From positions 1-42,495 of the forward strand of contig CALUXX010000002.1 in the NCBI GenBank assembly GCA_944324845.1: a stretch of DNA of 42,495 bases, read 5' to 3'. Below, in pieces: positions 1,657-42,178 of this stretch (its first letter is position 1; each line of letters begins with the position of its first letter). The DNA is from Candidatus Gastranaerophilales bacterium. GTDB lineage: Bacteria > Cyanobacteriota > Vampirovibrionia > Gastranaerophilales > Gastranaerophilaceae. The notes under the pieces are model-generated. The model worked only from the letters and a program-made list of their open reading frames with translations. It did not search any database and had not been told where the DNA came from. Made by a program: the position numbers and the translations under genes.

Positions 1657-2550
1657 CTAAGTAAGGGTGCTCATTTCTTGTTGAAGCTTTTGTAAGAAAA
1701 GTTTTGCACATTTTGAAAGTGGTTGATTTTTCTTCCACGCAATTAAAATTCCAACTTCTAATGTTGGTTTAAATGGTTTGAAACATAAATTGCTTTCGCC
1801 GGTAAAGTTTATCAATTTGTCAATACAAATTGCCTGCCCAAAACCTTCATCGACCATAATTGATGCGTTGTATAAAAGATTGTAAGAACCAACAATGTTA
1901 AGATTTTCAAAATCGTATCCAAGCCAGCCTGATATAAGATTTCTTACCAAAAATTGGCGGGAAGATAGTATTGGAATTTCTCTTAAATCATTAGGTTCGA
2001 TATATTCCTTTGCGGCTAGTGGAGAGTCTTTCCTCATTAAAATTCCCCATTTATCATTTTGTGGAAGTTGGATAAATCCGTATTCTTTTTTATCTACAGG
2101 TTCTATAAAAATTCCAAAATCTAATAAGCCTTTATTTAGTTTTTCTGTTACATCTTCTCCGTTTCCGCTATAGAGATGATATTTTATTCCAGGTTGGGCT
2201 TTAGATAAATTTTTTATTACTTTTGCAACAATTCTCATTGCATCTGTTTCGCCCCCGCCTATATAAATATCTCCGGTTATATTTTTATCATCAAATATAA
2301 ATTCTGCTTCTGTTTTATTGGCTAATTCTACGATTTCTTGGGCTCGAGCTTTTAGTAATTTACCTTCATCTGTTAGAGTTACGTTTTTATTTCGTTTTCC
2401 TCTAATGAATAATTTTGTTTTAAGTTCATTTTCCAAATCCATCAACTGTCTTGATAGTGTTGGTTGTGTAATATGCAGGCTTTCTGCGGCTTTTGAAATG
2501 CTTTCTTCTTGTGCTACTGCTAAAAAATATTTTAATACTCTGATTTCCAT
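1657..2550 (-). CDS. LysR-family transcriptional regulator
   Basis: This is a 297-residue protein of normal LysR length. Residues 1-60 form the winged helix-turn-helix (LKYFLAVAQEESISKAAESL, then ITQPTLSRQL as recognition helix). About 90-295 is the periplasmic-binding-protein-like effector domain (IYIGGGETDAMRIV onward). It is transcribed divergently from the four-gene cluster at 2672-6476, the classical layout for a LysR activator and its target operon. The gene has no Shine-Dalgarno; its -10 box ends 7 nt before the ATG, so the mRNA is probably leaderless. Its -35 box lies inside a perfect palindrome with a T-N11-A core, which suggests autorepression. The effector is unknown and might be a substrate of the CMD or hydrolase enzymes. 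Confidence 0.93.
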   Translation of the reverse strand: MEIRVLKYFLAVAQEESISKAAESLHITQPTLSRQLMDLENELKTKLFIRGKRNKNVTLTDEGKLLKARAQEIVELANKTEAEFIFDDKNITGDIYIGGGETDAMRIVAKVIKNLSKAQPGIKYHLYSGNGEDVTEKLNKGLLDFGIFIEPVDKKEYGFIQLPQNDKWGILMRKDSPLAAKEYIEPNDLREIPILSSRQFLVRNLISGWLGYDFENLNIVGSYNLLYNASIMVDEGFGQAICIDKLINFTGESNLCFKPFKPTLEVGILIAWKKNQPLSKCAKLFLQKLQQEMSTLT

Positions 2551-2556
2551 ATTAGT

Positions 2557-2585
2557 ATTTTAAGCGTTTTTTATATGCTCGTCAA
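2557..2585 (-). promoter_or_regulatory. lysR promoter, apparently leaderless
   Basis: On the minus strand there is TTGACG (-35, 2585-2580), a 17-nt spacer, TAAAAT (-10, 2562-2557), six bases, then the ATG at 2550. The predicted +1 is the A of the start codon, and no Shine-Dalgarno is present. Confidence 0.7.
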
Positions 2586-2595
2586 GCATATAAAA
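2569..2595. promoter_or_regulatory. LysR operator: perfect 11-bp inverted repeat with T-N11-A core
   Basis: TTTTATATGCT (2569-2579) and AGCATATAAAA (2585-2595) are exact reverse complements around a 5-nt centre. T2576 and A2588 satisfy the LysR T-N11-A rule. The repeat covers the lysR -35 box and sits just upstream of the -10 for the divergent operon, so a single bound regulator could repress lysR and activate the cluster. Confidence 0.75.
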
Positions 2596-10064: not shown

Positions 10065-13000
10065 CTATAAATCAAGTGTTAGAACTCTATCAAGGCAGGC
10101 TTTTGGTGAATATTGCCATTCTCTGTATGTAATACGCTTAACTTTGTAACCGCAGCGTTCTAAGATTGCTTGTTTTTTCATATTTGTCATATGGTGAAGT
10201 TTTTTAGAATCTTCCATACCATCAATTTCGATAACAAATTTTTCATCTACAACCAAATCTGCACTTAAACCTGCAATTTCTACACCTGCATTAACTTTGT
10301 GGTCTAATTTTCTTATTTCTTGAGCAACTTCTTTTTCCAGTGCATTTTTGTAAGTGTTTTCATCTATACCTGCATCTTGAATTAGTTTTTTGCGCTCTTT
10401 GTAGTTGTCAAGGTAAGAAACATAATGTCTGAAATGTCCGTCAGGCATTGTATCTAAGTCGTGAGAAACAAAGTTGATACATTTGTTTTTTGCTCTTGTA
10501 ATTGCAACGTTAAACAGATTTGGTTTTTGCAAGAAGGTTATACTTTGTGGGTATGAGTTGTTTGCAAAAGCCCAAGACATTAAAATAATATCTCTTTCAT
10601 CACCTTGGAAGGTGTGAGCTGTACCGATTTCTATTTGGTGTTTCTTTATCATATAGTCTGATAGAACTTTTGGTACTGAAATTTTTAACTGTTCAACTTG
10701 TGCTCGGAATGGTGAAATTATACCGATAGTAACAGGTTTTTCAGGATTATTTTTTTCATCATTTAAGACAATTTCGTGTAATGTTTTTACTAAAGCTTCA
10801 ATTTCAGGAAGGTTTCTTGTCGCATCGGAATCTACTTTACCTTCAGGAACTTTAATGATATCAATGGCATTTTCACTTGAAGTTTCTTTGCGCATAACTC
10901 TAATTCTGTCATTATAAAATTCTTTATTAGAGAAATTAATAATCGGCGGTAAACTCCTGAAATGTTCATCAAGCATAACTGAATTCATAGAATAGTAATC
11001 AGCCAAATCAAACATTGAATTTGTTCTAAATCGCCACATCAACTGATATTTGTCAGGTATTCCATATTGGCTCAAGAAGGATTGTTCTTTTGCTTTTTCA
11101 AGGAATGATAAGTGAGGTAATTGTTTGTCATCACCTACAACAACAGTTCTTTTGGCACGGTACATTATAGGGAAACAACTTGCAATATCACATTGAGAAG
11201 CTTCATCAATAATTGCAACATCAAACATTCCCGGTTTTAGCGGAAGTGAATCTGATACTGCGTAAGTTGTTACACACCAGCAAGGAAACGCGTCAAGTAA
11301 TGGTTTGAAATCTTCTTCTTCCATTATGTTATCTGTTTTTTTCTTGCGTTTTTCAACAAGTGCCAATGCGTGAACTTTTATTCGTCTAACTTTTTTAGCG
11401 TCACGAAGAAGTGATTTTAATGCTTCTCGTCTTGTAGATTTTAAAATATTAATCGCAAGATTATTTTGTTTTTTCTTTAATTGTCTTATTTGTTCCATCA
11501 TAACGTGAAGATTACCGATTTTTTGAATATCGGTTTCTATTTTTCTTAATCTCCACTTTTGGGTTACAAAATCAAGTTCAATTTTTAATCTGTCAAGTGT
11601 TTCAGGTTCTACCTCAAAGCTGTGAATGTTCAATATTTTCTTTAATTGTCTAATATTTGACATGTTCGCAAGTGAGGCAAAAAATCCTGATTTTTCCATA
11701 TTATCTGAAAGCGATTTTATCACGTCATTAATATTATCAATTTCTGATTTTTTCAACGGTCTTGTAATATATTCCAAATCCCCGATTGATGCGGTTGTTT
11801 TGGAAATTTCATCTTTTAGTTTATGCCATTCATTTTCCAAATTTATAATTTTTTCGCATTTATCTTCGGTTTCTCTTATGCAATCAAGGTGTTGAATCAT
11901 ATCTTTTGTGTCTGCAAAAATATAATCATCTAAATCCTCGTCAAGTGCGAATTTTCCTGAAACTAATTCTTGAAGTTGTGCACTTAATTGTCTTTGGTAA
12001 TTCATTCTACCTGCTCGCAGTGCTAAATATGGCGCGCCTAAATTGTTCAATCTGTCTGCAACAACATCAACTGCTTTATCCATTCTTGAGGCAACAAGAA
12101 CAGTTTTTCCGTTTGCAATTAAGTGAGCAACTAAGTTTACTATAGTTTGAGATTTTCCTGTTCCGGGAGGTCCTTGTACTGCAATTAGTTTACTGTTTTC
12201 AACATTTTTAATAACTCTTTCTTGAGAGTCACTTAATGCAAGCGGGGTTATAGGATAAAATGGTGCATCTGCATCTTTTAACGGGAATACCTTTTCTACA
12301 GATTGTGTGTATTCATCATTTATTACTCCTAATGTTGTTTCTCTGAATACTCCGCTTGGCTTTTCTGAAATTTGTATAAGTTCGTGCAGAACACCTGCAG
12401 TTACTGCAGGACGTTTTGTTAATATTATTGCACTTGAATCAACGACACTTAATTTTTTAATGTTATTTGTGGTTGATTTTTGTTTGGTTTCACGAATTTC
12501 ATCTTCTATTATTTCATCAAAATTTTCACCATTAATTTCGGTGTCTGAATAATCTTTTTCTTGATTTTCTTCTTTCGAAATATTATCTTCAATGTCGTTA
12601 TCTGAAGTGTCAAATGTAATTTCTATATCAGGAATAAGTGATTTTAAGGTTACAAGAAAAATGTCCATTTTTTCTTTTGTAATCGGCAAATCAGGCACTA
12701 CATCAAGTATTCCTTCCAAAAATAAATCAACTTCATCATCGTCATCACTTTTTTTCAACAAAGCAGCTATCGCTCCTGTGTTTAGTGATAAAACATCATC
12801 CTGAAGAATACAATTTATATTTACTCCGTTACGTTCCAGTTTGCAAGGAACATATAATAACGGGGTTAAAAATTCGTTTTGTCTGCGAGATTTTCCGTTT
12901 TTACCCACAATAAACATATACCCGTAGATTAAATATTTATCTCTGGCTCCGGAGCTACTTTGAAGCATTAATTCATTTAAGTTTGGATTTGAACCGTCAA

Positions 13001-13202
13001 GTTTTAAGTATTCCAAGCCTTCTGTTAATAAGGTTTCTTTCTCTTTTAAGAATATCCATTTGTTATCCTTATCACCTTTTAGATTTCTGAAGGTTGAACT
13101 TTTAACTTCTTCTCTTACGCAATCGTGTAGATACAAACTTAATTTTTTTATAAAACTGTTATTAAATGCCGAATTAAGGGCTCTGGTTGCTTCTTGTAAC
13201 AT
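10065..13202 (-). CDS. Superfamily 1 (UPF1/Dna2-like) helicase with C-terminal Vsr/PD-(D/E)XK-like nuclease domain
   Basis: The 1045-residue protein has an N-terminal domain of about 320 residues that I cannot name, with an acidic linker at about 200-235. An SF1 helicase follows: Q-motif-like SDSQERVI, Walker A GPPGTGK (344-350), DEAS (666-669), GDDKQLPH (690-697), LDEHFRS (744-750), THTFQGDERD-like motif near 860-871 and NVAITRAKN (898-906). Residues about 450-620 are helical insertion. The last 90 residues (EKEVAQEI, GLSADLVVDEKFVIEIDG, ILERCGYKVKRITYREW) look like the Vsr/MTES_1575-type endonuclease fold attached to such helicases. This order resembles DUF4011-helicase-Vsr proteins linked to phage defence, but a housekeeping repair role is also possible. 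It stands alone, divergent from cca. Confidence 0.85.
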   Translation of the reverse strand: MLQEATRALNSAFNNSFIKKLSLYLHDCVREEVKSSTFRNLKGDKDNKWIFLKEKETLLTEGLEYLKLDGSNPNLNELMLQSSSGARDKYLIYGYMFIVGKNGKSRRQNEFLTPLLYVPCKLERNGVNINCILQDDVLSLNTGAIAALLKKSDDDDEVDLFLEGILDVVPDLPITKEKMDIFLVTLKSLIPDIEITFDTSDNDIEDNISKEENQEKDYSDTEINGENFDEIIEDEIRETKQKSTTNNIKKLSVVDSSAIILTKRPAVTAGVLHELIQISEKPSGVFRETTLGVINDEYTQSVEKVFPLKDADAPFYPITPLALSDSQERVIKNVENSKLIAVQGPPGTGKSQTIVNLVAHLIANGKTVLVASRMDKAVDVVADRLNNLGAPYLALRAGRMNYQRQLSAQLQELVSGKFALDEDLDDYIFADTKDMIQHLDCIRETEDKCEKIINLENEWHKLKDEISKTTASIGDLEYITRPLKKSEIDNINDVIKSLSDNMEKSGFFASLANMSNIRQLKKILNIHSFEVEPETLDRLKIELDFVTQKWRLRKIETDIQKIGNLHVMMEQIRQLKKKQNNLAINILKSTRREALKSLLRDAKKVRRIKVHALALVEKRKKKTDNIMEEEDFKPLLDAFPCWCVTTYAVSDSLPLKPGMFDVAIIDEASQCDIASCFPIMYRAKRTVVVGDDKQLPHLSFLEKAKEQSFLSQYGIPDKYQLMWRFRTNSMFDLADYYSMNSVMLDEHFRSLPPIINFSNKEFYNDRIRVMRKETSSENAIDIIKVPEGKVDSDATRNLPEIEALVKTLHEIVLNDEKNNPEKPVTIGIISPFRAQVEQLKISVPKVLSDYMIKKHQIEIGTAHTFQGDERDIILMSWAFANNSYPQSITFLQKPNLFNVAITRAKNKCINFVSHDLDTMPDGHFRHYVSYLDNYKERKKLIQDAGIDENTYKNALEKEVAQEIRKLDHKVNAGVEIAGLSADLVVDEKFVIEIDGMEDSKKLHHMTNMKKQAILERCGYKVKRITYREWQYSPKACLDRVLTLDL

Positions 13203-13256
13203 AAATTATAAACTACCTTCTTTTTTGTACATATTCCATTTTACACCATTTTACGC

Positions 13257-13262
13257 TAAAAT
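13257..13262 (+). promoter_or_regulatory. Candidate -10 of cca at leaderless spacing
   Basis: TAAAAT ends 7 nt before the A of the cca ATG (13269), matching the spacing seen at lysR, der and anmK. The sequence 17 nt upstream (TTCCAT) is a poor -35. There is no Shine-Dalgarno. Confidence 0.4.
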
Positions 13263-13268
13263 CAACGT

Positions 13269-14369
13269 ATGAAAATCATAAATTTACAGGATAAAAACTT
13301 ATTTTTTATAGGCGGAGTAGTTAGAGATGAACTTCTTGGCAAAGAAAGTTTTGATGTAGATTTAACGTATGTCGGAAATGCGATAGAATATGCCAAAACT
13401 ATTCCTGATGTTCAAATTGTACAAATTAACGAGCCTTTTGGAACTGTAAGAATTAAACTTAACGACGAAGAAATTGACATTGCCTCAACTCGTGTTGAAA
13501 CTTATCCGCAAAAAGGTCACTTGCCTTGTGTGTGTGGAATTGGATGTCCTTTAAAAGACGATATAATGCGTAGAGATTTTACGGTTAATGCTTTAGCAAA
13601 ATCAACTTTAACCGGTGAAATTGTTGATTATACAGGCGGGCTAGATGATATTAAAAATAAAATTTTAAGAGTTTTACACGATAAAAGTTTTGTTGATGAT
13701 CCGACAAGAATTGTAAGAGCTTTGAAATTTTCAATTAGGTTTGGTTTTGAGCTTGATGAAAATACTAAAAAACTTCAAGATGAATACTTGAAAAATATCA
13801 ATTACGATATGTCTTATAAAAGACTAAAAAAAGAATTGGTTGAAACTTTTAACTTAAATTCACAAGCTGCATTTGAAAAGTTTATAAATGAAGGAATTTA
13901 TAAACTTGTTTCTGCTAAGAGTTTTGAATTGCCAAAGGTTAATTTTGAGCATCTTATAAGAGAATTTAATCCTGAAAATATTTGGATAATTTATGTTGGT
14001 TTATTACCTGATATTTCAGCTTTGCCATTAACAAAAGTTGAAAAAAAGATTGTTGATGATTTCAACAAATTAAAAAATAACAAATCTTTTGATAGCGATT
14101 TTGAAATATGTAAGGCTTTTGAAGGTTTAAATTTAGAAACAATAATAATGTATTGTTCAATAAATAAAGATATAGTTGAAAAATATTTGCATAAATTACG
14201 TTATATTAAAATTGAAACAACAGGAAAAGATTTAGTCGAAATGGGGATAAATCCATCCTCAAAATATCAGCAATGTTTTGATTTTATATTGGAGCACAAA
14301 TTAAAAAATCCTGAACTTAATAAAGTTCAGGAAGTGGAACTTGCCAAGCGATTTTTTGGAATTATTTAA
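13269..14369 (+). CDS. cca: CCA-adding enzyme / poly(A) polymerase family nucleotidyltransferase
   Basis: This is a class II tRNA nucleotidyltransferase that builds or repairs the CCA end. The head domain shows FFIGGVVRDELLG with catalytic Asp pair D29/D31 (FDVDLT), then RRDFTVNALA (101-110), DYTGGLDDI and DDPTRIVRALKFSIRFGF, the standard order of motifs. The neck/body continues to 366. Between strand 5 and RRDFT the usual loop is replaced by a Cys-rich segment, CVCGIGC (C87, C89, C93), which may bind a metal or form a disulphide. Whether it adds the complete CCA or only part of it cannot be told. There is no Shine-Dalgarno before the ATG. Its 3' end overlaps the convergent binding-protein gene by 8 nt. 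Confidence 0.92.
   Translation: MKIINLQDKNLFFIGGVVRDELLGKESFDVDLTYVGNAIEYAKTIPDVQIVQINEPFGTVRIKLNDEEIDIASTRVETYPQKGHLPCVCGIGCPLKDDIMRRDFTVNALAKSTLTGEIVDYTGGLDDIKNKILRVLHDKSFVDDPTRIVRALKFSIRFGFELDENTKKLQDEYLKNINYDMSYKRLKKELVETFNLNSQAAFEKFINEGIYKLVSAKSFELPKVNFEHLIREFNPENIWIIYVGLLPDISALPLTKVEKKIVDDFNKLKNNKSFDSDFEICKAFEGLNLETIIMYCSINKDIVEKYLHKLRYIKIETTGKDLVEMGINPSSKYQQCFDFILEHKLKNPELNKVQEVELAKRFFGII
14302..14332 (-). terminator. Terminator for the solute-binding-protein gene, lying inside the cca coding sequence
   Basis: On the minus strand TCCTGAACTT, a TATT loop and AAGTTCAGGA form a perfect 10-bp stem followed by TTTTTT. It is about 30 nt past the binding-protein stop and entirely within the last codons of the opposing cca gene. 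Confidence 0.75.
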
Positions 14370-36946: not shown

Positions 36947-36974
36947 TTGCAAAAAATATTATCCATGATATTAT
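36947..36974 (+). promoter_or_regulatory. der promoter, apparently leaderless
   Basis: TTGCAA (36947-36952), a 16-nt spacer and TATTAT (36969-36974) with an upstream TGA (TGn extended -10). The -10 ends 7 nt before the ATG at 36981, and there is no Shine-Dalgarno. Confidence 0.7.
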
Positions 36975-36980
36975 AAAGCT

Positions 36981-38312
36981 ATGAAAAGAAAGCCAATAGT
37001 TGCAATAGTAGGAAGACCAAATGTCGGAAAATCAACTTTTGTTAATCGTCTTGTCGGTGCAAGACATTCAATAGTTGACGATTTGCCCGGAGTTACTCGT
37101 GATAGAATTTATTTTGATGTTGAATGGCAAAATAAAATGTTCACGGTAATTGATACCGGTGGTATTATTCCGGGTGATGAAGATGATATTATGGTTTCAA
37201 TTTTTGATCAGGCAAAGTTGGCTTGTGAAGAAGCTGATAAGATTATTTTTCTTGTTGACGGAAAAGATGGTATAAATCCGATAGATTATGATATCGCAAA
37301 TATTCTAAGACAAACGGATAAGCCAGTATTTTTGGCGGTTAACAAATGCGATAACCCTGAATCATTACTTATGGTTAGTGATTTTTATGAGTTGGCATTA
37401 GGTGAACCTATCGGAATTTCGGCCCTACATGGCAGCGGTGGTGTTGGTGATTTATTGGAAGTTGTTACTAAGGATTTTGAAATTTTAGAAGATGAACAAG
37501 ATGATAATAGAATTAAAATCGCTATTGTTGGTCGTCCTAATGCAGGTAAATCTTCTATTGTTAATGCAATATTAAATACCGATAGAGTAATAGTTTCTGA
37601 TGTTTCAGGTACAACAAGAGATAGTATTGACAGTTATGTAACTTATAAGGATAACGAGTTTATAATAGTCGATACCGCAGGAATTAGAAAAAAATCAAAA
37701 GTCGATTATGGTGTTGAAAAGTTTGCAGTTGACAGAGCTATTCGTTCCATAAGAGATTGCGATGTTGCTGTTTTAGTAATTGATGCAAAAGAAGGAATTT
37801 CCGATCAAGATAAAAAGATTTCATCAATTATTACAGAAGCAGGAAAAGGTTTGATTGTTGCAATAAATAAATGGGATTTGATTGAAGATAAAAAGGCTAA
37901 TACAATCAACAAATTCGAAAAAGAATTGGAAGTTGATATTCCATTTTTAAGTTTTGCTCCAAAGATATTTATAAGTGCAGTTACAAAACAGAGATTGGAT
38001 CAAATTTTTGTTGAAAGTTTGAAAGTTTATGAGCAATGTGTAAAACGAGTTTCAACAGGTCTTCTAAATAAGGTTATTAATGAGGCTTATGCTCTTAATC
38101 CTCCGACAAGTTTCAAAGGAAAAAGACTTAAGATTTATTATACAACTCAGGCAAAAACTCAGCCACCAACGTTCATATTGTTCGTAAATAACGAAGAATT
38201 ATTGAAAGATAGTTATAAAAGATATATTGAAAACAAATTGCGTGAGGCTTTTGGATTTTTCGGAACACCTATTAGAATATCTGTTCGTAATCGTGGTGAA
38301 AAGAAAAATTAG
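36981..38312 (+). CDS. der: Ribosome-biogenesis double GTPase Der (EngA)
   Basis: The essential 50S-assembly GTPase with two tandem G domains. G1 motifs are GRPNVGKS (11-18) and GRPNAGKS (184-191). G3 is DTGGI and DTAGIR, and G4 is NKCD and NKWD. The KH-like C-domain is about 345-443 (NPPTSFKGKRLKIYYTTQAKTQPPTFILFVN). At 443 residues it has family length. The start is the only ATG in place and sits 7 nt after a TATTAT -10 box, implying translation from a leaderless mRNA. Confidence 0.97.
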   Translation: MKRKPIVAIVGRPNVGKSTFVNRLVGARHSIVDDLPGVTRDRIYFDVEWQNKMFTVIDTGGIIPGDEDDIMVSIFDQAKLACEEADKIIFLVDGKDGINPIDYDIANILRQTDKPVFLAVNKCDNPESLLMVSDFYELALGEPIGISALHGSGGVGDLLEVVTKDFEILEDEQDDNRIKIAIVGRPNAGKSSIVNAILNTDRVIVSDVSGTTRDSIDSYVTYKDNEFIIVDTAGIRKKSKVDYGVEKFAVDRAIRSIRDCDVAVLVIDAKEGISDQDKKISSIITEAGKGLIVAINKWDLIEDKKANTINKFEKELEVDIPFLSFAPKIFISAVTKQRLDQIFVESLKVYEQCVKRVSTGLLNKVINEAYALNPPTSFKGKRLKIYYTTQAKTQPPTFILFVNNEELLKDSYKRYIENKLREAFGFFGTPIRISVRNRGEKKN

Positions 38313-38578: not shown

Positions 38579-39517
38579 TTATTTATTTTCATCTAAATCG
38601 TAATTGCTGATTGTGTCGTTCAGAATTTGAATCATTTCATCACGAAGGTTTTTAGGTGATATTATTTCGCAACTGTCTGTATAACGCATTAGTCTTTGGA
38701 TTAATTTGTCAAAACTTTCGTTTTTATTTATTACTATAAGTTCACCGTTTTCATTATAACCGTCAGAGTATTCATTTTCTTTTAATTTATAAGTTTTAGC
38801 AAGTCTGTTTTTAAGTTTATAAACAACTGTTGTTGACATTTCGATATCGCTTGCAATTTGAGGTAATCTTACGATAGATAGAACATTATTTATTGGAATT
38901 TCGAGATTTATGTGATTAACAGTATCATAAATTCTTAAAGAAACATTTTTGCAACCGTAAAGAACTTCTTTTAGTACGCCTTTGCATTGTAATTGTTTAT
39001 TATTTTTCAGATAAATAATATTTATCATAAATCTTTCTGCGCAAATTTTTTCGCACTGAATGATTTGTTCTCTAATATTGGCATAATAAAATCCAAAATC
39101 ATAATTCGAATTATTAAGCAAAGAATTTAAGGTATTTTTGTCTTCGCTTTTCATTCTTAATTCGACTTTATTCAGCATATTTTGAACTTGGTTTGATTGT
39201 TTATTTTCAGGAAAATTTTGGATGTAATTTATTAAAATACTAATTGCTCTTAAGTCTGCATCATTAAGGTTTATTGAATATAGACTATTTTGAATTTTAT
39301 ATTTAGTATTTTCTTTTTCAATTTTCAGTCCAAAAACTTTTAATGTATTAATGTATCTGTTCAGAATTACTTGAACATTTTCTTTTGGAGTTTCTTTAGA
39401 GCCATCTTTAAATATTTCAAGCACTTTGTCGTATTCTGCTTGATCTTCGTAAAGTAGTTTTAGAAATTTGAATATTTTAAGGCAACCGTCATTTAATTTT
39501 TTATTATTTTTCATCAT
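38579..39517 (-). CDS. WYL-domain transcriptional regulator, second of a tandem pair
   Basis: The 312-residue protein has an N-terminal winged-helix-like region (about 5-75, INTLKVFGLKIEKENTKYKI) and a WYL-like domain (about 155-215) with a degenerate ligand patch (INIIYLKNNKQLQCKGVLKEVLYGCKNVSLRIYD), then a WCX C-domain ending YTDSCEIISPKNLRDEMIQIL. It overlaps the upstream WYL gene by 14 nt. AGAGGG precedes the double ATG (39517/39514). The two proteins share domain order and are probably a heterodimer or ancient duplicates. Confidence 0.72.
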   Translation of the reverse strand: MMKNNKKLNDGCLKIFKFLKLLYEDQAEYDKVLEIFKDGSKETPKENVQVILNRYINTLKVFGLKIEKENTKYKIQNSLYSINLNDADLRAISILINYIQNFPENKQSNQVQNMLNKVELRMKSEDKNTLNSLLNNSNYDFGFYYANIREQIIQCEKICAERFMINIIYLKNNKQLQCKGVLKEVLYGCKNVSLRIYDTVNHINLEIPINNVLSIVRLPQIASDIEMSTTVVYKLKNRLAKTYKLKENEYSDGYNENGELIVINKNESFDKLIQRLMRYTDSCEIISPKNLRDEMIQILNDTISNYDLDENK

Positions 39518-40445
39518 AGCCCTCTTTCATTTTCTTTAGGGTTGTGATTATAAAATCTTTAAAATCTTGCGGGTATAATACTTTACATTTTTTAGAAAGG
39601 AACATTATTCTTTGCATTAAATCAAATTTACTTTTTGAAGTTATTTCGATTAATAATTTATTTTCAGAACTTGAGATAATTTTTTCATTTTGAAGAGGTT
39701 CAAATATTTCGTTAACATCTTTTGTATATTCATATCCTACGGTAATTTCAGGCGTAGAGAGTGTTTTGTGTCCAAGGTTTACGCTAACTATTTTTATAAT
39801 TTTAGATACAAGAAATTTTGAATAATTATTATGTTCGGCATTAAATCCATAAATATATAATTTACCATTTTCGATACCGATTTTATCGGTTAGAACAGTA
39901 ATATTTTTTCGCCCGGAAATGGGTGAATTGTAATATATAGTAATTTCATTTTTGTTATTTGCATATGTTCTAAGTTGTTGAATTAAGTTTGTATCAATAT
40001 TACTAATTGGAGAAATATTTGTTAATTTTTTCTTCAAATCATCATTAGAAACGTAGTCGGCAATTTTATTAAAAAATGATTGTAAAGCCATTAAATCCAT
40101 GACATCAATAGATTTAGAAATGGTTTTATAAACTTTGATAATACTTTTAACTTGTTCATCGTCAAAAGTTAATTGAAACGGGTGAGAATCAATAGTATAT
40201 TTATACACTCCGTTTTCGCTAATTCTTTTGATATTACAGCCAAAACTTTTGAGAGTATTAAAGTAAATTCTCAAGGCATCTACTGACAAATTTTCATGAA
40301 GATATTCATGATTTTTTATATAATCTTGAATTTCTTTATACGATTTAGGAGAATCCGTTAATAATGAAAAAATTATCATGGATTTAAAACCGGTTAAAGA
40401 TAATAGGTTATGTGTAATCGTGTTAGTTTTATAAAATTGTTTCAT
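39504..40445 (-). CDS. WYL-domain transcriptional regulator, first of a tandem pair
   Basis: The start is taken at ATG 40445 (MKQFYK); a GTG at 40487 lies over the promoter region. The 313-residue protein has the N-terminal winged-helix region with FNTLKSFGCNIKR, matching FLKVFG-type helices in the partner, and a clear WYL domain (NKNEITIYYNSPISGRKNITVLTDKIGIENGKLYIYGF, with KLYIY where WYL normally stands), then the FLVSKI..IVSV strand and a WCX-like end. WYL domains often sense nucleic acids or nucleotides, as in PafBC and BrxR/CapW. Adjacent genes do not disclose a defence island. Confidence 0.78.
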   Translation of the reverse strand: MKQFYKTNTITHNLLSLTGFKSMIIFSLLTDSPKSYKEIQDYIKNHEYLHENLSVDALRIYFNTLKSFGCNIKRISENGVYKYTIDSHPFQLTFDDEQVKSIIKVYKTISKSIDVMDLMALQSFFNKIADYVSNDDLKKKLTNISPISNIDTNLIQQLRTYANNKNEITIYYNSPISGRKNITVLTDKIGIENGKLYIYGFNAEHNNYSKFLVSKIIKIVSVNLGHKTLSTPEITVGYEYTKDVNEIFEPLQNEKIISSSENKLLIEITSKSKFDLMQRIMFLSKKCKVLYPQDFKDFIITTLKKMKEGYDEK

Positions 40446-40467
40446 AAAATTTTCTTTAACTCTTATT

Positions 40468-40497
40468 GCTATAATGCAGTCTAGCACAAACTTTCAA
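40468..40497 (-). promoter_or_regulatory. Promoter of the WYL-WYL-HTH operon, with a small palindrome
   Basis: TTGAAA (40497-40492), 18-nt spacer and TATAGC (40473-40468) on the minus strand. TGCTA (40467-40471) and TAGCA (40482-40486) form a 5-bp inverted repeat spanning the -10, a possible operator for autoregulation. Confidence 0.4.
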
Positions 40498-40699
40498 GAT
40501 TTTCCAGTCATAAAAAAACATGCTAAATTTATTATTAAAAAATTATCATTTGTCAAATAAAATTTAATAAAATTTTTACAAGATTTCATTAAATTATCTT
40601 CATTAAGAATAGTTAACTTGAATTTTTACTAATAGTATCAGGGGGCATGGTCAAATGTAAAAAAATAATAAAATTTTTTTACTTGTAATTCTCAATCAA

Positions 40700-41035
40700 A
40701 AGGACTAGAGTAGATTACATAAGGAAAGCCGAATTAGAAAAAAGGCTACCAGACAACGGAAGGGAAAAACGTTACTCTGTAGTAAGTAACAAATATGACA
40801 TAAGATGGTTGGACGAAAGAAATAGAGGTGATGGTGAAGAAGTCCAAAAAGGAAAGAGATTACTGGGGGCAGTCGTTGCCTGTATGGTTAGGGATATTGT
40901 ATTTATTATAAACTTAATTTATTTATTTAATTTTTTATCTAGTATATTTTGGGGGAAGCAAAGACTTTTAGAAGAGAGTTGTAAGGATAGTTGTAAACTT
41001 TTTAGCCTGGACTTGAAAGAGTACGGGCTTTTTTA
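40700..41035 (+). ncRNA. Candidate structured noncoding RNA of about 320 nt, class unknown
   Basis: A promoter-like pair (TTGTAA 40683-40688, 17-nt spacer, TAGAGT 40706-40711) is followed by a GC-richer stretch and ends in an intrinsic terminator at 41004-41035. Pairings seen by eye: AGAGTA 40707-40712 with TACTCT 40773-40778, AGCC 40727-40730 with GGCT 40744-40747, TTGGAC 40809-40814 with GTCCAA 40842-40847, GGCA 40868-40871 with TGCC 40877-40880. I could not match it to RNase P RNA, tmRNA, 6S or SRP RNA. It could also be a decayed gene; the frame from 40689 to 41051 has no ATG and uses codons unlike the neighbours. Confidence 0.35.
41004..41035 (+). terminator. Intrinsic terminator before anmK, overlapping the anmK promoter
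   Basis: AGCCTGGACT and AGTACGGGCT (41004-41013, 41020-41029) pair over 10 positions with one mismatch and one G-T pair, loop TGAAAG, followed by TTTTTT. The anmK -35 box lies in the loop. Confidence 0.7.
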
Positions 41036-41041
41036 TATTAT
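41013..41041 (+). promoter_or_regulatory. anmK promoter, apparently leaderless
   Basis: TTGAAA (41013-41018), 17-nt spacer, TATTAT (41036-41041), six bases, then ATG at 41048. The predicted +1 is the A of the ATG, and there is no Shine-Dalgarno. Confidence 0.72.
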
Positions 41042-41047
41042 AAAAAT

Positions 41048-42178
41048 ATGATAGAAGATTTGGAGCCTAAAAAAGTTATAGCATTAATGTCAGGGACTTC
41101 TTGTGATAGTATTGATGCAGGTTATTGTGAAGTTTATCCTGACAAATCCGTTAAATTAATTCACGGAATAAATTACAGCTACCCGGAACATATTCAAGCG
41201 AAGATATTTCAATTATTTAGGGGTGAGGCTACAATTAAAGATATTTGTCAGATGAATTTTGTAATTGGAAAATGTTTTGCTGATGCTGCAAATGTTTTGA
41301 TATCTGAATTTGGCAAACCTGATTTTATCTCCAGTCACGGACAAACTATTTATCATTATCCATATGATGAAAAAATAGATAATATAAATATGAAAAGTAC
41401 ATTTCAAATAGGTGAAAGTTCAGTAATTGCAAAAGAAACAGGATGTATGACGATATCAAATTTCAGAGAAGTAGATATTGCGCATAATGGTCAAGGTGCA
41501 CCGCTTGTTTGTTTTGCCGATGAAATGTGGTTTAAACATAAGGGAAAGAATTTTGCTATTCAAAATATCGGTGGAATATCGAATGTAACTGTTGTTTCTA
41601 AAGATTATGAAACTTTCGGATTTGACACAGGTTTAGGTAATATAATGATAGATTACTGTGTTAGAAAATATTTTGGAAAATCTTATGATAAAGATGGTGA
41701 AATAGCTTCAATCGGAACAATATCAGATAATTGGTTAGACTGTTTACTTCAAGATGAGTACTATTACTTAGATCCCCCAAAAACAACAGGAAGAGAATAT
41801 TTTTCATCTGAATATATCGAAAACACATTAAAATACGCTCCACAAAACCCTGAAGATATAATAGCAACAGCAACTGCATTGACTGCCAAAACGATATCTC
41901 AAGCTTATGAGCGTTTTGTCTATCCGAATACATCAATAGATGAAGTTGTTATATGTGGTGGTGGTGCTTATAATAAAACACTTATGAAAATGTTAAGAAC
42001 ATATCTTCCAAAACATATAGCTTTGAAAACCTGTGAAGATTATAATATTTCAAATAATTACAAGGAAGTAATGGCATTTGCACTTTTGGGTTATTGCACA
42101 TACTATGGAATTCCTAATAATCTGCCTTGCTGTACAGGTGCAGATAAAAGAGTAGTTTTAGGTAAAGTTTCATACTAA
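41048..42178 (+). CDS. anmK: Anhydro-N-acetylmuramic acid kinase
   Basis: Phosphorylates and opens 1,6-anhydroMurNAc during peptidoglycan recycling. The 376-residue protein has family length, with MSGTSCDSIDAG (ATP phosphate 1 loop), SSHGQTIYH, the substrate region FREVDIAHNGQGAPLV, NIGGISNVT, FDTGLGNIMID (phosphate 2 with catalytic Asp) and VVICGGGAYNKTLM. It starts 12 nt after a terminator T-run and directly after a promoter. An upstream frame ends at 41051 but I consider it non-coding. Confidence 0.95.
   Translation: MIEDLEPKKVIALMSGTSCDSIDAGYCEVYPDKSVKLIHGINYSYPEHIQAKIFQLFRGEATIKDICQMNFVIGKCFADAANVLISEFGKPDFISSHGQTIYHYPYDEKIDNINMKSTFQIGESSVIAKETGCMTISNFREVDIAHNGQGAPLVCFADEMWFKHKGKNFAIQNIGGISNVTVVSKDYETFGFDTGLGNIMIDYCVRKYFGKSYDKDGEIASIGTISDNWLDCLLQDEYYYLDPPKTTGREYFSSEYIENTLKYAPQNPEDIIATATALTAKTISQAYERFVYPNTSIDEVVICGGGAYNKTLMKMLRTYLPKHIALKTCEDYNISNNYKEVMAFALLGYCTYYGIPNNLPCCTGADKRVVLGKVSY

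Follow-up and report, generated by a model that had tools for sequence, protein, structure and literature searches.

A class of genes in this Candidatus Gastranaerophilales genome carries a TATAAT-like hexamer at exactly -12 to -7 from the start codon, an arrangement that is very probably best explained by the -10 element of a housekeeping-sigma promoter from which a leaderless mRNA would begin at the ATG. As the hexamer spans -12 to -7, the standard transcription start is the A of the ATG. The window, that is the whole stretch of 42,495 nucleotides analysed, contains four genes of this class, lysR, der, anmK and cca. From the box, its register, its genome-wide excess at -12, its conservation in register in the footprints of these four genes, and the promoter elements that occur with it, including T(-1)/A(+1) and TGn, whose enrichment is confined to this class, we infer where the mRNAs begin, which sigma factor is used and that translation is leaderless.

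The excess was measured over 82% of the genome (1.61 of 1.96 Mb), assembled from stretches, in which a home-made codon-usage gene caller blind to upstream sequence called 1387 to 1388 genes. A TATAAT-like box, defined by at most one mismatch with TA...T kept, starts exactly at -12 in 50 of the 857 ATG transcription-unit heads, compared with 1 at -11 and 15 at -13; neighbouring offsets average 10.3, dinucleotide shuffles gave a mean of 12.1 (sd 3.2, maximum 24 in 200 shuffles), and the Poisson p is about 5e-19. The genome-wide surplus of -10 hexamers at this spacing, whose absence would have spoken against the preliminary description, is strongly present, with 50 seen against about 10-12 expected. 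Only 0.8% of internal ATGs have a box at -12. A count independent of the gene caller, for TGnTATAAT-like sites followed by a 6-nt gap and an ATG that begins an ORF of 100 aa or more, gave 37 sites, while other gaps in the same codon phase gave 0-5 each. The surplus over chance is about 38-40 genes in this genome, or some 4-5% of its transcription-unit heads, and the arrangement occurs at about 4-6% of transcription-unit heads in Gastranaerophilaceae. Regarding start codons, GTG and TTG starts had 1 box at -12 among 63, a small sample for judging a preference for AUG.

The genome is about 32% GC, and about 10-12 of the 50 class members, roughly 20-25%, are expected by chance, which would favour the reading that TATAAT-like hexamers arise at random in an A/T-rich genome and that well-placed ones were picked. 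The probability of that reading is close to nil, as the positional excess, the footprints in dozens of genomes and the sharing of the class state between orthologues already contradict it, both for the class and for the four genes of the window. With der left out, nine class members of this genome have orthologues among 80 related loci, and for 8 of these 9 at least one orthologue also belongs to the class; among other genes this is so for 6 of 102 (Fisher p = 6e-8). In these 80 loci, der again removed, the box stands at -12 in 49 of 641 heads, at -11 in 5 and at -13 in 14.

Besides lysR, der, anmK and cca, the class in this genome includes radA, prfA, a YifB-type ATPase gene, dnaA, rex, era, dnaG, hisS, holA, a rarA/mgsA-type gene, and genes for a mini-RNase III domain protein, an rsmD-like protein, a TRAM-domain RNA methyltransferase, two U32 peptidases, guanylate kinase and a 3-methyladenine glycosylase, as well as queF, folK, aroQ and others. 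As a descriptive list, it includes many genes of replication, repair, RNA modification and translation; categories of information storage and processing have been described as richer in such genes (Zheng et al., 2011; PMC3160421).

Promoter context of the class

Features that had played no part in the selection of the class, T at -1, TGn and the -35, were compared between its members and other genes. Of the class members, 90% have T at -1, compared with 44% of the remaining heads that lack a Shine-Dalgarno (SD) sequence (p = 6.5e-10) and 54% of heads with one; no comparable bias is seen at -2 and -3. A T at -1 followed by A at +1 is the usual pyrimidine-purine context of a transcription start. 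TGn precedes the box in 40% of the class, compared with about 4-5% elsewhere (p = 5e-10) and 16% at boxes in other positions. A TTG-type -35 at 16-17 bp was detected in 12 of 30 class members without TGn, the members in which the -35 bias is concentrated. The sequences with TGn abutting the hexamer have the form of an extended -10 sigma-70 promoter, in which the -35 is dispensable, and are predicted to have promoter activity.

Start regions that are AT-rich and lack SD sequences are found in other phyla (PMC6847099, PMC5397173), and the box might likewise be an A/T-rich non-SD translation signal within a leadered mRNA, of the Bacteroidetes or S1-dependent cyanobacterial type, and no promoter at all. 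This is very unlikely, as TGn, a -35 at 16-17 bp and T(-1)A(+1) are promoter features for which an RNA-level signal has no need, and positions -13 and -6 to -2 are near background. Moreover, the box precedes just 6 of 305 operon-internal genes at -12, about three-fold more rarely (p = 0.005), a scarcity that is expected if the box is a promoter. Taken together, T(-1), TGn, the -35 and the scarcity within operons make a promoter that starts at the ATG more likely than a translation signal carried by a leader.

In the leaderless reading, a housekeeping-sigma promoter would place its -10 element at -12 to -7 of the start codon, so that RNA polymerase would begin at the A of the ATG, with T at -1 and A at +1, and produce an mRNA with no 5' leader. 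Two promoter designs are predicted: der exemplifies an extended -10 (TGnTATAAT) with no -35, whereas lysR and anmK have a -35 at 16-17 bp. Ribosomes would then initiate at the 5'-terminal AUG in the leaderless manner described for other bacteria, with no Shine-Dalgarno contact. Upstream promoters may give leadered mRNAs for the same genes as alternatives.

Footprints of der, lysR, anmK and cca

In lysR, der, anmK and cca the last base of the -10 box lies at -7, and direct reading of the sequence agrees in all four cases with the placement first proposed. The accompanying claim that these genes have no Shine-Dalgarno holds as an observation in all four, in a genome in which a strict SD core is present in 41% of transcription-unit heads, but has no value as independent evidence, since the box occupies the SD site and the absence is thus partly forced. 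The features of der are as follows.

36981..38312, plus strand: der (EngA) GTPase coding sequence, predicted leaderless, with predicted transcription start at 36981 (Pfam MMR_HSR1 twice and KH_dom-like of EngA)
36969..36974, plus strand: der -10 box TATTAT, -12 to -7 from the ATG (sequence and relatives' upstreams)
36966..36967, plus strand: TG of the der extended -10 (TGaTATTAT), TG being present in 59/59 distinct upstreams with TAnnnT at -12
36947..36952, plus strand: TTGCAA, a -35-like hexamer claimed for der, unconserved and probably not a determinant

The essential gene der has the layout TTGCAA, 16 nt, TATTAT, 6 nt, ATG 36981, and its nearest related loci are from Candidatus Gastranaerophilales/Melainabacteria, which confirms the lineage. 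Among 75 distinct der upstreams from related genomes, TGnTAnnnT stands exactly at -12 in 59, all of which have T at -1 (59/59), and some homologues do not have the box. The TTGCAA that had been paired with this box as its -35 does not survive the comparison: columns -36 to -30 reach a relative entropy of at most 0.16 bit, columns beyond about -21 are near background, and TGn is conserved instead. As the TTGCAA columns are near background while TGnTAnnnT is kept, the conserved determinant of der, as read from the alignment, is the extended -10 and not a TTGCAA -35.

The box lies at -13 in 7 of the 75 der upstreams and at -15 in 5, and 71 of the 75 fall between -16 and -11. In these relatives a box at -13 would be compatible with a start at the A, and one at -15 would leave the mRNA with about 3 nt ahead of the ATG. 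RNA polymerase varies in its choice of start site by a base or two, which lends support to the alternative that at least part of the genes have very short leaders of 1-5 nt and are not strictly leaderless. This alternative is unlikely, though it deserves some weight; against it, -12 is by far the commonest register, and T(-1) before A(+1) appears to be selected while -2 and -3 show no like bias.

Start prediction is generally fallible (PMC9581028), and the promoters could be real with the true start codons further downstream, in which case the mRNAs would have ordinary leaders and the annotated ATGs would be unused. The chance of this is very slight. The N-termini of homologues align from the first codons; in der, whose N-terminus is MKRKPIVAIVGRPNVGKS, the alignment begins at residue 1 in most homologues, and the P-loop begins at about residue 10 with no further Met ahead of it. 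In addition, the register of the box to the annotated ATG is conserved, and in cca, as set out below, the box follows an ATG that has moved. Regarding lysR, the following features were found, all on the minus strand.

1657..2550, minus strand: LysR-family regulator coding sequence, predicted leaderless (Pfam HTH_1 and LysR_substrate)
2557..2562, minus strand: lysR -10 box TAAAAT, -12 to -7, with TAnnnT at -12 in 9/12 close homologues
2580..2585, minus strand: lysR -35 TTGACG (TTGACA in relatives), with atgcTTGACAggcat kept in most same-genus homologues
2575..2589, minus strand: inverted repeat ATGC-N7-GCAT around the lysR -35, conserved as ATGCTTGACAGGCAT in relatives

The lysR layout is TTGACG, 17 nt, TAAAAT, 6 nt, ATG 2550. 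The inverted repeat at the -35 is a candidate LysR-type operator, which would be consistent with negative autoregulation. The features of anmK are listed next.

41048..42178, plus strand: anmK coding sequence, predicted leaderless (Pfam AnmK, E = 5.7e-94)
41036..41041, plus strand: anmK -10 box TATTAT, -12 to -7, with TAnnnT at -12 in 19/29 loci
41013..41018, plus strand: anmK -35 TTGAAA, within a terminator hairpin, most relatives having TTGcat or TTGaaa at 17 bp as well

The anmK layout is TTGAAA, 17 nt, TATTAT, 6 nt, ATG 41048, and der and anmK do share TATTATAAAnnTATG, as the preliminary description stated. Some homologues of anmK do not have the box. The remaining gene, cca, has two features.

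13269..14369, plus strand: cca-like tRNA nucleotidyltransferase coding sequence, predicted leaderless (Pfam PolyA_pol head domain)
13257..13262, plus strand: cca -10 box TAAAAT, -12 to -7, right arm of a palindrome, the -12 register being kept in two clades

A TAAAAT at the same spacing with a poor -35 had been described for cca and is confirmed by the sequence; cca is better placed with the members that have no -35. The TAAAAT stands at -12 within a conserved block in 13 genomes. In ten other genomes the protein starts three codons (9 nt) later behind a different promoter, and the box is again at -12; the box thus tracks the moved start, which is hard to explain unless box and start are functionally coupled.

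The palindrome ATTTTA-CGC-TAAAAT (13248-13262, plus strand) is conserved before cca, has a TAAAAT -10 on each strand and adjoins a divergent helicase-like gene (10065-13202, minus strand). It is possibly a shared divergent promoter or an operator; ATTTTACGCTAAAAT occurs once in the sequence analysed, in which no regulon was found for it.

Distribution in the lineage and relation to known systems

Positional scans of samples from other families had no clear peak at -12, namely G045 (400 kb, another family of the order), G057 (200 kb, another class-level family) and G085 (200 kb, another family of the same phylum). As these samples are small, whole-genome counts of the pattern TGNTATAATN5TATG were used instead, with a control containing two more bases (N7). 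In 12 genomes of Gastranaerophilaceae the pattern occurs 243 times and the control 27 times, in three genomes of family f5 of the order 19 and 3 times, and in one genome of another family of the class (G058) 8 and 2 times; in families f2, f3, f4 and f6 pattern and control are about equal at low counts, and seven genomes elsewhere in the phylum have 0-1 pattern matches each. The -12 signal is strong in Gastranaerophilaceae; one further family of the order has it at moderate strength, and most of the remaining families lack it. It appears to be a derived trait of Gastranaerophilaceae, perhaps held in common with f5. The count for one genome of the family, G070, is inflated by about 12 copies of the repeat TGYTATAATAGTGATATG, and the excess of the family stands with these removed.

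In G070 the repeat TG[CT]TATAATAGTGATATG is present at about 12 places, and a similar TATAAT-containing repeat was found in G061. By its sequence this repeat is a dispersed element with a promoter-like box directly before an ATG.

Outside this lineage, leaderless initiation has been described chiefly in Actinobacteria, Deinococcus-Thermus and archaea, and de Groot reportedly described in 2014 a -10 motif adjacent to ORFs in Deinococcus-Thermus. A -10 box at about -12 is an accepted leaderless signature in Actinobacteria, Deinococcus-Thermus and other groups (PMC3160421, PMC12340547, PMC9581028). The TA-led leaderless genes of Zheng et al. (2011; PMC3160421) have, like the genes described here, TAnnnT/TATAAT about 12 bp before the start codon, and low-GC genomes may have TG ahead of the box; the groups of that study leave out Cyanobacteria, which were called atypical, whereas the present lineage is a non-photosynthetic sister lineage of Cyanobacteria. 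In Deinococcus-Thermus, as here, the -10 hexamer lies about 6-7 bp ahead of the ORF, and the ORF-adjacent -10 is reported to drive transcription of leaderless mRNA (PMC12340547). That group, however, has the arrangement in nearly one third of genes, mostly as TACACT, whereas here it is found in a minority, is TATAAT-like, often has TGn and stands beside a working SD system. In the account of GeneMarkS-2 given in PMC9581028 (Lomsadze, 2018), the leaderless class likewise has promoter signals upstream of its genes, and leaderless transcription is predicted in 21.6% of bacterial species.

A literature search for leaderless genes in Melainabacteria found no report of them, and among the matches listed for Gastranaerophilales and promoter, none was about bacterial promoters by title. 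The organisation is thus a known one, here in a lineage for which no such report was found. Gastranaerophilales live in the gut and have been seen almost exclusively in metagenomes, which leaves sequence as the source from which the rules of their gene expression must be drawn. A promoter fused in exact register to the start codon predicts transcript ends and corrects start annotation.

The arrangement is conserved in front of der throughout Gastranaerophilaceae, where this essential gene is predicted to be leaderless, while der upstreams in other families mostly have an SD-like sequence or lack the box. How leaderless initiation is gained and maintained can thus be studied comparatively on the cyanobacterial side of the tree.

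A further proposal, that in a gut family of Vampirovibrionia a defined, ortholog-conserved information-processing set (der, era, dnaG, hisS, cca and others) has gone over to leaderless initiation, is improbable. If true, the synthesis of the products of this set would be set apart from that of the SD-led proteome, and could be increased, or protected from loss, whenever leadered initiation is restricted, as under stress or in the presence of initiation inhibitors such as kasugamycin.

Terminator and conserved stretch upstream of anmK

The anmK promoter lies within the end of an upstream transcript, as indicated by the following feature.

41004..41034, plus strand: Rho-independent terminator hairpin and T-tract of the upstream transcript, overlapping the anmK -35 and spacer (folding, compensatory pairs)

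The -35 is located in the hairpin and the T-tract forms part of the 17-bp spacer (41004-41041, plus strand), so that the end of one transcript and the start of the next would share about 30 bp. The hairpin shows compensatory pairs, and the hairpins of relatives fold at -13.3 and -17 kcal/mol.

Between a regulator-like gene (39504-40487) and anmK, a stretch of about 490 nt (40550-41040, plus strand) is conserved, with 71-93% nucleotide identity to its counterparts in about 20 or more relatives of the same genus, while other genera give short fragment matches only. It is single copy in the sequence analysed and ends in the terminator hairpin. A search of the window against Rfam gave no match, and the stretch has no evident single conserved reading frame. 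RNase P RNA was considered as its identity and rejected, as the RNase P RNA lies elsewhere (C5). The stretch has the appearance of a conserved non-coding RNA of the genus, as yet undescribed.
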